From: an uncultured Gammaproteobacteria bacterium
GTDB taxonomy: Bacteria; Pseudomonadota; Gammaproteobacteria; UBA4575
Assembly (NCBI GenBank): GCA_951812785.1
Contig: OX638335.1
Location: 1,755,653-1,819,652, forward strand
Reading direction: 5' to 3'
Length of the DNA: 64,000 bases
In this document: piece by piece, positions 54,385 to 57,980 of the stretch
Layout of the letters: each line of letters begins with the position of its first letter
Position numbering within the stretch: position 1 is the first letter of the stretch
Program-made: the position numbers and the translations under genes
The notes under the pieces: model-generated
Told to the model about the DNA's origin: nothing
Seen by the model: the letters and a program-made list of their open reading frames with translations, nothing else
Databases searched by the model: none

Positions 54385-56337
54385 TTAGTGATCGCCTAGC
54401 GCCATGTCGATATAACCAGTAGGGCATACATCAGCACAGATATGACAACCAATACACTTGTCATAGTTAGTATCCACATAACGTCCTGTGGTTGTTTTAT
54501 CCTTCTTAACTCGGAACACTGCATCTTGTGGACAGTAAATCACACAGTTATCGCACTCAAAACACATACCGCAGCTCATACAGCGACCCGCTTCTTCAAT
54601 CGCTTTCTCTTCGGTTAAACCAATCATACGCTCTTCAAAGTGACCCAATACCTCTTCTGAATCAGGCCCGTGCAAATCACGTAGCACGCGCGGCGTGAAT
54701 TCAAAATGGCCTAAGAACAATCTGTCTGAAGAAATAATTTCTTGCGCTGAGCGATCTTCGTAGTTATGTACTGAGAAACCAGCCGAATCGGTACCGCGGA
54801 TATCACCTGGTTGATAGTCTTCAGGCTCTAAACCAGTTTCTTGTAATTTCTCTAACAAGCTAAAGTGATGTACATCCACTTTAGGACGTTTAGAAAATTC
54901 TTTTTCATTGAGATAGAAATCAACACTGTCTGCACAGATAGATGCTTGGCCGATTGCAGTGGTTAGCAAGTGCGGGCGAATAATATCTCCACATACAAAA
55001 TGACCTTCTTTACCTGGGACCTGGTAATGCTTATCTGCATCAATCAAACCACGGCCATTATCAAATGCTTCAAGACCTGCTAAGTCACCACCTTGACCAA
55101 TTGCAGAAACAATCAAGTCACATTCAATATCGTATTCTGTACCTTCAACGGGCGTTGGACGACCGTCTTCTAGTGTACATTTAGCCATACGTAAAGCCGT
55201 TGCACGACCTTCGTCGTTCACAATCACTTCAACTGGCATTACACCATTGTCAATACGAACACCTTCATGAAGTGCATCATGTACTTCATGCTCAGCTGCT
55301 GTCATGCCTTCGCGCTCAAACAATGAAGTTAATGTGACTTCTGCGCCTTCACGTGCTGCTGCATAAGCTGCATCATGTGCCACATAGCCACCAATCACAT
55401 GCTCGGGTGCTTCTTTTTTATCTAACTTAGAAATTTTCCCTAAACGACGCGCCACAGACACAACGTCAATTGAAGTATCACCACCACCGACGCATACCAC
55501 ACGGTCAGCAGTGACTTTCAAAATGCCTTTGTTGAATGCTTCCAAGAACTTAACACCGGCAACACAGTTTGGTGCATCACCATTAAGGACTGGAAGACTG
55601 CGGCCAGATTGGCATCCTAACGCCCAAACAACAGCATCATATTCTTTTTCTACCTCTTCGATAGGAAGATCGCGACCGACACGCGTATTTAAACGCACTT
55701 CAATATCACCTAGATCTAAAATTCTTTGGATCTCTGCGTCAAGATAGTCACGTGGTGTTCGGTAACCAGGAATGCCGTACTTAAACATTCCTCCTAACTC
55801 ATCATGGTCATCAAAGATAATACCTGCATGGCCTTTACGGCGTAGCTGGTATGCTGCTGCCAGACCTGCAGGTCCACCACCAATAATGGCGATTTTCTTG
55901 CCACTTAATTTTACTGATGCTTCGTACTTATATCCTTCCGTTATTGCTGTATCGCCGATGTATTGTTCTACCGAGTTGATGCCAACAAAATCTTCTACAT
56001 GATTTCGGTTACATCCCTCTTGGCAAGGTGCTGGACATACTCGACCCATCATTGACGGGAATGGGTTTGCATCAGTTGAGCGACGGAATGCGTACTCTTG
56101 CATAGAGACACCTTCAGGTGGCGTTTCGATGCCACGAACAATATCTAACCAACCACGAATATCTTCACCTGATGGGCAGCTTCCCTGGCATGGTGGTGTA
56201 CGGTGAACGTAAGTAGGGCACTTATGAGATTTATCACCTTCAAATATTTGATCACCGAAGTTCCCCCATTGGTGGTCACCATCATCATACTTACGAAACG
56301 TAAGTATGTAAGACATGTCATCCTTTGATGTAGCCAT
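54385..56337 (-). CDS. dsrL: DsrL, NAD(P)H:acceptor oxidoreductase of sulfur oxidation
   Basis: The 650-residue flavoprotein resembles the GltD/NfnB small-subunit family. It has N-terminal Cys motifs for FeS clusters (CQGSCPSGEDIRGW; CPAPCQEGCNRNH), an FAD loop IIGGGPAGLAAAYQL, an NAD(P) loop VCVGGGDTSIDVVSVA, and a C-terminal diferredoxin (CMSCGMCFECDNCVIYCP; CIGCHICADVCPTG). It is essential for sulfur globule oxidation in Allochromatium and works with DsrAB. Its ATG follows AGGAG, directly after an inverted repeat. Confidence 0.96.
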   Translation of the reverse strand: MATSKDDMSYILTFRKYDDGDHQWGNFGDQIFEGDKSHKCPTYVHRTPPCQGSCPSGEDIRGWLDIVRGIETPPEGVSMQEYAFRRSTDANPFPSMMGRVCPAPCQEGCNRNHVEDFVGINSVEQYIGDTAITEGYKYEASVKLSGKKIAIIGGGPAGLAAAYQLRRKGHAGIIFDDHDELGGMFKYGIPGYRTPRDYLDAEIQRILDLGDIEVRLNTRVGRDLPIEEVEKEYDAVVWALGCQSGRSLPVLNGDAPNCVAGVKFLEAFNKGILKVTADRVVCVGGGDTSIDVVSVARRLGKISKLDKKEAPEHVIGGYVAHDAAYAAAREGAEVTLTSLFEREGMTAAEHEVHDALHEGVRIDNGVMPVEVIVNDEGRATALRMAKCTLEDGRPTPVEGTEYDIECDLIVSAIGQGGDLAGLEAFDNGRGLIDADKHYQVPGKEGHFVCGDIIRPHLLTTAIGQASICADSVDFYLNEKEFSKRPKVDVHHFSLLEKLQETGLEPEDYQPGDIRGTDSAGFSVHNYEDRSAQEIISSDRLFLGHFEFTPRVLRDLHGPDSEEVLGHFEERMIGLTEEKAIEEAGRCMSCGMCFECDNCVIYCPQDAVFRVKKDKTTTGRYVDTNYDKCIGCHICADVCPTGYIDMALGDH

Positions 56338-56355
56338 TACCTTGCTCCTAGTTAG

Positions 56356-56434
56356 AAAAGGGGTCAGAGCCCTTTTTTATCATTTACTCTAAAATAAATT
56401 AAAACTTCTCAAAAAAAGGGCTCTGACCCCTTTT
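56356..56434. repeat. Perfect 23-bp inverted repeat between dsrK and dsrL
   Basis: The left arm, 56356-56378 (starts AAAAGGGGTCAGAGCCC), and right arm, 56412-56434, are exact reverse complements separated by 33 AT-rich bases. The motif GGGGTCAGAGCCC resembles the terminal motifs of REP/BIME elements moved by RAYT transposases. The right arm ends one base from the dsrK stop and the left arm 18 bp before the dsrL ATG. In RNA it forms a very stable hairpin inside the dsr transcript. No transposase is in this window. Confidence 0.9.
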
Positions 56435-56435
56435 C

Positions 56436-57980
56436 TTAAGCCGCTTGTTCTGCGTCTTTTGTGTCTTCTTCATCACTCCCACCATCAGTTTGTCCGGTTA
56501 GAACAATGGCATTACTCACGAGCTGATGAACACTGACAATCTGATCCATTTGGAAATCGTAATATGGAAATATTTTTGAGAACTGGCTCTTACATATTGC
56601 GCAAATCGCAGCCATATGTGTCACACCATTTTGCTCTGTTACTTGCTTCAGTGCTTGCATACGCGGCATCGCACCTTTCACGCGCAATTCAATTAAATCA
56701 TCTGTTAATAAACCACCACCGCCACCACAGCAGTAAGTGCCTTCTTTAATTGAATGTTCGGGCATGTCGTAATAGTCATTACAACTCGCCTTAATAATGT
56801 CTCGTGGAATTGTAAATTGTCCGCCTGGTGTATCACCCATTCGTGATGCACGCGCGACGTTACATGAGTCATGATAAGTCAATGTCATATGATCATTTCC
56901 AGACTTATCCAACTTAATGGTTCCATCCTGTATGAAGCCATGCGTAACCTCGCAAATATGCTGAGGAACAGGATAGTTCGAGTCTAAGAAATCAAACGGG
57001 CCAGCCAATGTATTCAAGAAGCTATAAGCAACACGCCATGCATGACCACACTCTCCGAATACAATACGTTTCACACCTAAATCTAATGCTGCTTGACGAA
57101 TACGTAATGCTAATTTCTGCATGTTTTCGTAACTTCCAATAAACATACCAAAGTTAGCGGCTTCACTTGCATATGAACTCATCGTCCATGAAACATCTGC
57201 TTCATGGAAAACTTTTGCATAACCAATTAAGCCATCTATATGAGGCTCCGCAAAGAAATCTGCAGATGGTGTAATCAACAGCACATCAGCACCTTTAACA
57301 TCAAGCGGCAGTTTTACTTGAACACCTGTCTCGTCCTCTATGTCTTCTTCTAAACCTTCCAAAGTATCTATTAACGCTGGCTCTGGCAGTCCTAAATTAT
57401 TACCTAATACTTGTGCTTTACCAATAATTTCGTTGCAATATTTTTGACCTTTACCGACAGTATCCATAATCTCACGAGCAGCCATAGATATCTCTGCGGT
57501 ATCAATGCCATACGGGCAGTACACAGAACATCTTCGACACTGCGAACACTGATGGAAATAGGTATACCAATCGTCTAATACTTCTTCGGTAAGATCTTCT
57601 GCGCCGACTAATTTTGGCACTATCTTCCCAGCTAACGTGTAATAACGTCGATACACTTTGCGGAATAAATCTTGGCGCGCGACAGGCATGTTTTTAGGAT
57701 CAGTTGTTCCTAAATAGTAATGACACTTGTCAGTACATGCCCCACACTTCACACAGGAATCTAGGTATACCGATAGCGAGCGATATTTGTCAGTTAATTC
57801 ACCCATTTTTTCGATCGCAACTTCTTTCCAGTTATCGATCAACTCACCGGGATAGCCCAGTTTTGTTTGGAATTCTTCTTTCGCCACATAAGGTGCACTA
57901 TGTGCCATGGCATCTTTTTTCAACTTCGGAATTATTGGATAGTCTTTTAACTCCGGGACATCAAATTTAGCAGCGGCCAT
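56436..57980 (-). CDS. dsrK: DsrK, iron-sulfur subunit of the DsrMKJOP complex
   Basis: The 514-residue cytoplasmic-side protein has two [4Fe-4S] motifs (CVKCGACTDKCHYY and CSQCRRCSVYCPYG) and C-terminal HdrD-like CCG domains (HDSCNVAR; TYCCGGGGGLL; CAICKSQFSK). The noncubane cluster in this HdrD-like module is thought to handle the DsrC trisulfide/disulfide. It is a partner of DsrM. dsrM lies 21 bp upstream, and the inverted repeat abuts its stop. Confidence 0.97.
   Translation of the reverse strand: MAAAKFDVPELKDYPIIPKLKKDAMAHSAPYVAKEEFQTKLGYPGELIDNWKEVAIEKMGELTDKYRSLSVYLDSCVKCGACTDKCHYYLGTTDPKNMPVARQDLFRKVYRRYYTLAGKIVPKLVGAEDLTEEVLDDWYTYFHQCSQCRRCSVYCPYGIDTAEISMAAREIMDTVGKGQKYCNEIIGKAQVLGNNLGLPEPALIDTLEGLEEDIEDETGVQVKLPLDVKGADVLLITPSADFFAEPHIDGLIGYAKVFHEADVSWTMSSYASEAANFGMFIGSYENMQKLALRIRQAALDLGVKRIVFGECGHAWRVAYSFLNTLAGPFDFLDSNYPVPQHICEVTHGFIQDGTIKLDKSGNDHMTLTYHDSCNVARASRMGDTPGGQFTIPRDIIKASCNDYYDMPEHSIKEGTYCCGGGGGLLTDDLIELRVKGAMPRMQALKQVTEQNGVTHMAAICAICKSQFSKIFPYYDFQMDQIVSVHQLVSNAIVLTGQTDGGSDEEDTKDAEQAA

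Follow-up and report, generated by a model that had tools for sequence, protein, structure and literature searches.

A RAYT-associated, REPIN-like repeat of the GGGGWSAS class between dsrK and dsrL of an uncultured gammaproteobacterial sulfur oxidizer

The analyzed window, a stretch of 64,000 nucleotides, corresponds to positions 1755653 to 1819652 of the single 2.16-Mb contig; window coordinates are used for the dsr locus and contig coordinates for all other places. Two neighboring open reading frames on the minus strand encode proteins of 514 and 650 amino acids, and from their context and from family knowledge we take the upstream gene (56436 to 57980) to be dsrK and the downstream gene (54385 to 56337) to be dsrL. 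The spacer between them carries an inverted repeat whose arms (56354 to 56378 and 56412 to 56436) comprise 25 nt each, are 100% complementary, and are separated by 33 nt. A preliminary description of this DNA had reported mismatch-free arms of 23 bp at 56356 to 56434; the perfect pairing was confirmed, whereas the repeat proved to extend two bases further on either outer side. At its outermost position, the arm at 56412 to 56436 overlaps the final base of the dsrK stop codon TAA, and 16 nt lie between the other arm and the ATG of dsrL. In the sense of the mRNA, the region reads TAA-GAAAAGGGGTCAGAGCCCTTTTTTT...AAAAAAGGGCTCTGACCCCTTTTC-TAACTAGGAGCAAGGTA-ATG. In the dsr mRNA, the arm that comes first (AGAAAAGGGGTCAGAGCCCTTTTTT; 56412 to 56436, minus strand) represents one REP/TIR unit, and the second (AAAAAAGGGCTCTGACCCCTTTTCT; 56354 to 56378, minus strand) is its exact reverse complement. 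Each arm contains the 19-mer AAAGGGGTCAGAGCCCTTT, which is itself a small palindrome able to form a hairpin of its own (AAAAGGG-GTCAGAG-CCCTTTT, with GTCAGAG as the loop). This motif matches twice within the 64-kb window (0.35 matches expected), both times at dsrK-dsrL. Folding of the repeat (plus strand) gave −43.5 kcal/mol compared to −19.05 ± 3.05 kcal/mol for shuffled sequences (z = −8.0), none of 200 shuffles being equally stable. The Shine-Dalgarno sequence AGGAG of dsrL (56345 to 56349, minus strand), which is part of the conserved tail CTAACTAGGAGCAA, is unpaired and located outside the stem in the predicted fold of the dsr mRNA.

Copies elsewhere in the genome were counted by pattern searches, with the reversed sequence as a control. 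Allowing up to three mismatches, AAAGGGGTCAGAGCCCTTT was found in 14 distinct copies at 10 places of the whole genome, and the control gave none; for the 13-mer GGGGTCAGAGCCC, there were five exact matches, compared to none for the control. The genome thus does hold further copies, a point on which the preliminary description had made its proposal of a mobile repeat depend. Four of the ten places are inverted pairs, located at dsrK-dsrL, guaB-guaA (1620194 to 1620252), rpoA-rplQ (1422225 to 1422291; L006:1498-1564), and cas6-dsrC (1820717 to 1820796; 74 bp, approximately 1 kb past the end of the window), and the neighboring genes are co-oriented at all four. The rpoA-rplQ doublet, which has taken the place of the short spacer seen in relatives, has perfect arms of 29 bp with a private G-to-C change common to both. 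Doublet lengths in the genome range from 53 to 74 bp, and the interiors are mutually unrelated. A single unit is present at 350248 between ftr and folD. In this sulfur oxidizer, ftr, encoding formylmethanofuran formyltransferase, is thus adjacent to folD (L001:615-2462); in the ftr-folD gap of relatives, an apparent terminator hairpin takes the place of the repeat unit. At the fourth doublet (L005:795-1952), a second dsrC gene immediately follows cas6 (PF09559); this dsrC is also found in close relatives, behind a shorter spacer without the doublet. Furthermore, a variant repeat, AAAGGG(G/A)TCAGTACCCTTT, is found at 736645 to 736663 and 2031543 to 2031561 and matches the sequence 5′ of another RAYT gene (L253), so that a second repeat subfamily seems to be present in the genome.

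Comparison with related genomes revealed that the dsrK-dsrL site is empty elsewhere. Including the stop codon, the spacer measures 101 nt here versus 40, 40, 41, and 48 nt in four genomes of the same genus, all of which share the tail TAACTAGGAGCAA. Among the dsrK-dsrL spacers listed for other genomes (the four same-genus genomes, genomes of the same order, and a set of 80 loci), none contains the motif, in agreement with the insertion at this site claimed previously. The opposite pattern, a repeat lacking other copies in the genome and kept between dsrK and dsrL even in distant relatives, was found on neither count. The rpoA-rplQ spacer spans 80 nt compared to 18 nt in the closest relatives, the cas6-dsrC spacer 123 nt compared to 55 nt, and both of these doublets are absent from the relatives. 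The guaB-guaA doublet also occurs in genome G009, and genome G010 has a single unit there, the alignment suggesting that a deletion involving the two arms left only this unit. Because the dsr sites are empty in relatives and the gua doublet is shared with G009, the dsr copy is lineage specific and the gua copy older; presence or absence across genomes is the sound argument for a lineage-specific gain. TAA occurs on both sides of the dsrK-dsrL element, but the sister genomes possess both TAAs without it; no target site duplication marks the boundaries at dsrK-dsrL, and none is shared at the other doublet sites, in contrast to what a MITE of a DDE transposon would show.

The same distribution bears on the reading that the element is not mobile but serves dsr operons as a conserved cis-regulator or structured RNA. 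Its stable folding, its constant place in the operon, and the structured dsrK-dsrL spacers of unrelated sequence in some other lineages would fit such a role, but the element is absent from every relative's spacer listed, and the same sequence appears in unrelated operons and around RAYT genes. An Rfam scan returned no family at the gathering score; the matches listed, to generic long hairpins, scored far below it and are attributable to chance, and a structured RNA family was rejected on these grounds. With the empty sites rejecting a conserved dsr regulator and the distribution contradicting it, we consider this reading extremely improbable. Separately, two genomes of another genus (L074 and L075) carry an unrelated structured insert of approximately 100 nt at dsrK-dsrL (dG of −35 to −39), and strong hairpins are found in the dsrK-dsrL spacers of some Chromatiaceae. 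The junction may tolerate insertions repeatedly.

The A+T-rich interior of the dsrK-dsrL doublet (56379 to 56411) is unlike those of the other doublets and shows no significant similarity to the ancestral spacer as represented by the sister genomes (shuffle P of ~0.57). A retained ancestral spacer was consequently rejected for this site, only the guaB-guaA interior resembling the spacer of a relative; a cargo shared by the doublets was likewise rejected, as no significant similarity was found at dsrK-dsrL. The empty sites show the gain of a whole doublet, yet since the doublet interiors are unrelated, they do not prove movement as one unit, and two separate unit insertions possibly produced the doublet. 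The age of the insertion is only bounded, because the nearest genome without the dsr copy is already distant, with 41% of the four-fold degenerate sites of dsrL differing. Had two 25-bp arms drifted freely since that split, approximately 10 differences between them would be expected, compared to none observed. The preliminary description had taken the perfect arms as a sign of recent insertion, but they are no proof of recency, because the guaB-guaA doublet, already present before a deeper split from a same-genus genome (46% of four-fold sites differing), keeps nearly perfect arms with one difference within the core in this genome. Pairing of the arms may be kept by correction or selection.

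The genome contains five matches to PF01797 (Y1 transposase), and the repeat is associated with RAYT genes. The exact 19-mer was found in 23 of the 369 gammaproteobacterial genomes sampled (control, 0), and many of its copies in those 23 genomes adjoin RAYT genes; in other genomes, e.g., at L238, L241, L242, and L251, a Y1 HUH transposase gene is flanked on both sides by the repeat in inverted orientation. A RAYT of 187 amino acids is encoded at 1250362 to 1250922, and its repeat-flanked relatives elsewhere are 54 to 60% identical. Relatives were retrieved with the 187-residue protein (E ≤ 1e-60), and 17 from outside its own genome were examined. In 13 of these, the repeat with at most three mismatches is located 5′ of the start codon (exact in 8, with one to three mismatches in the others), the distance from its first base to that codon being approximately 73 to 91 bp; some have further copies farther out. 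Eight of the 13 repeat-bearing genes also possess an inverted 3′ copy (≤3 mismatches), mostly overlapping the stop codon. The sequence GGGGTCAGAGCCC is thereby tied to a specific RAYT group. The RAYT gene of the genome under study has a 5′ copy with three mismatches, the first base of which lies 101 bp before the start codon, but the protein loses homology after residue 164, whereas its relatives extend to approximately 230 residues. The tail after residue 164 of this broken gene (1250362 to 1251023) resembles L011:448-516. A second copy at 88.2 to 88.6 kb is a deletion remnant that retains 56 N-terminal and approximately 40 C-terminal residues together with a 3′ repeat with two mismatches (88601 to 88619); this internally deleted remnant adjoins an IS-type transposase. 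No cognate RAYT gene in intact form was detected in the genome, and the two copies present look broken. The transposase anticipated by the preliminary description is thus represented by a truncated RAYT with a decayed 5′ repeat copy, and the same repeat flanks relatives elsewhere.

A Y1 protein of 281 amino acids encoded at 1193.8 kb is intact and passes NCBI's REP-associated tyrosine transposase model, but its gene is flanked by a different repeat, GGGTCAGGTCTTGTTTC, and it was rejected as the mobilizer. Assignment by a RAYT tree was dropped; as most of its branches were unresolved, the link to the cognate RAYT rests on the flanking repeats. Another repeat of similar build (GGG-loop-CCCTTT), AGGGGACGCTACCCTTTAA, flanks a Y1 transposase fragment in inverted orientation at L023:1-1321, where a 690-bp tandem duplication is also found.

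Taken together, we consider it very likely (probability of roughly 90%) that a REPIN-like GGGGWSAS element spread by RAYT/TIRYT entered the dsrK-dsrL spacer after the split from the nearest sequenced relative. The enzyme responsible for the spread, in this genome or an ancestral one, would have been a Y1 HUH transposase of the RAYT/TIRYT type. The site shows a net gain of 61 nt, with approximately 20 nt of the old spacer replaced and the Shine-Dalgarno region of dsrL kept. Since truncation or internal deletion affects the cognate RAYT copies found here, the element probably cannot move now; possibly, a mobilizer comes from outside the transposase family searched.

In the dsr mRNA, the element is predicted to form a 25-bp stem (approximately −43 to −46 kcal/mol) reaching from the dsrK stop codon to 16 nt before the dsrL start, and we infer that it persists mainly because the spot tolerates insertion. 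Folding would cut the 98-nt spacer to approximately 16 unpaired nucleotides, and therefore the ribosome binding site of dsrL would remain accessible, a short distance from where dsrK ends. The corresponding unpaired stop-to-start distances are approximately 8 to 12 nt at guaB-guaA and a few nucleotides at rpoA-rplQ. Tolerance is favored because these folded distances are no longer than the spacers of relatives, which, with the stop codon excluded, measure 37 nt at dsrK-dsrL and 18 nt at rpoA-rplQ. At rpoA-rplQ, the Shine-Dalgarno-like CAGG of the relatives is gone from beside the start codon of rplQ, which lies a few nucleotides from the stem base, and for this reason coupling to rpoA may be of importance at this junction. 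A farther-reaching reading would be that doublets inserted between the end of one gene and the beginning of the following one are kept since a perfect stem cancels the inserted length and keeps the frames coupled, with the pairing itself under selection and the operon spacer tuning the ratios of the subunits of the sulfur oxidation complex; we regard this as quite unlikely.

Known REP biology allows effects on expression of either sign, and the three candidate effects of the predicted stem on the dsr mRNA or its translation would differ in sign. Firstly, the stem might serve as a useful regulator that blocks 3′ exonucleases arriving from the dsrL side, so that the dsrMK mRNA would outlast dsrLJOP and the subunit ratio would shift. 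A very stable stem predicted exactly at the 3′ end of dsrK is consistent with this, as is the analogy with E. coli, where Newbury is said to have reported in 1987 that REP stems stabilize upstream mRNA. However, since same-genus relatives have the same operon without the element, the stem is not needed for the dsr operon; moreover, the same kind of element resides in the unrelated operons guaBA and rpoA-rplQ, and REP effects can also be negative. We therefore treat this regulatory role as a tentative possibility only. Secondly, the first arm might act as a partial intrinsic terminator or a translation-sensitive attenuator (A4G3-loop-C3U7) lowering dsrLJOP transcription; a ribosome finishing dsrK would cover the first arm and prevent termination. 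The first arm alone folds at −10 kcal/mol, and a terminator scan listed a weak match to a terminator-like hairpin at 56440 to 56408 on the dsr strand, but that scan is not selective, as it found 12 such sites versus 9.7 expected. With only three strong G-C pairs, the U run inside the stem, and a pathway that requires expression of dsrL and the downstream genes, termination appears doubtful. Thirdly, the stem, which is predicted to begin at the dsrK stop codon itself, might slow the terminating ribosome and lower dsrK output, an effect opposite in sign to the excess of DsrMK over DsrL and later subunits foreseen in the preliminary description. E. coli REPs within approximately 15 nt of a stop codon have been reported to lower the output of the upstream gene, but the placement is the same at guaB and rpoA, which suggests that it is tolerated; we regard slowing as unlikely. 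The stem may equally well have no measurable consequence; should it have any, the most likely would be that the mRNA is processed somewhat differently at the 3′ end of dsrK.

Classical REPs are present in hundreds of copies per genome, and with 14 units and 4 doublets the copy number here is low compared to them and to REPINs. Both arms contain GGGGTCAG, which fits GGGGWSAS, and no GTAG or GGAG tetranucleotide head is found next to either arm. The earlier claim of a REP-like mobile element is thus upheld as regards a dispersed, RAYT-associated repeat, whereas by sequence the repeat belongs to the GGGGWSAS-motif type and not to the classical GTAG-headed REPs. Classified by sequence, the dsrK-dsrL element is a REPIN-like doublet in which two REP/TIR units of GGGGWSAS type face each other in inverted orientation. 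A full-text literature search, a weak test, did not find the exact GGGGTCAGAGCCC, and a text search for the motif gave only unrelated papers among the matches listed. The present case documents, with empty sites, how a RAYT-associated repeat entered core operons (dsr, guaBA, and rpoA-rplQ) of an uncultured sulfur oxidizer, and the occupied and empty sites provide natural with/without comparisons for the effects of REP stems inside operons.

RAYT-like genes flanked by GGGGWSAS terminal inverted repeats (TIRYTs, TIRtrons) were described by Di Nocera and co-workers in 2013, who also found GGGGWSAS repeats dispersed as singles, dimers, and clusters or groups (PMC3733652). The repeat studied here agrees with the TIRYT repeats (PMC3733652) in its fit to GGGGWSAS, its position flanking RAYT genes, and its dispersed singles and dimers, but differs in its low copy number and in doublets located inside operons directly after stop codons. 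A REPIN, as defined by Bertels and Rainey in 2011, is an inverted REP doublet that forms a hairpin and has a less conserved interior, the GI REPINs of P. fluorescens measuring 71 bp (PMC3116915). The doublets share with these the inverted arrangement of short palindromic units, the single long hairpin, a similar length (53 to 74 bp versus 71 bp for GI), ends that are better conserved than the interior, and the association with RAYT; unlike REPINs, they have non-GTAG ends and unrelated interiors and number 4 rather than hundreds. With E. coli REPs and BIMEs they have in common a hairpin between operon genes near a stop codon, whereas the GTAG head is missing, the transposase belongs to a different subgroup, and multi-REP mosaics do not occur in this genome. 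The element is accordingly not a new kind of system but a known kind of repeat, ordinary in type, which derives a modest interest from its operon positions and its link to RAYT.
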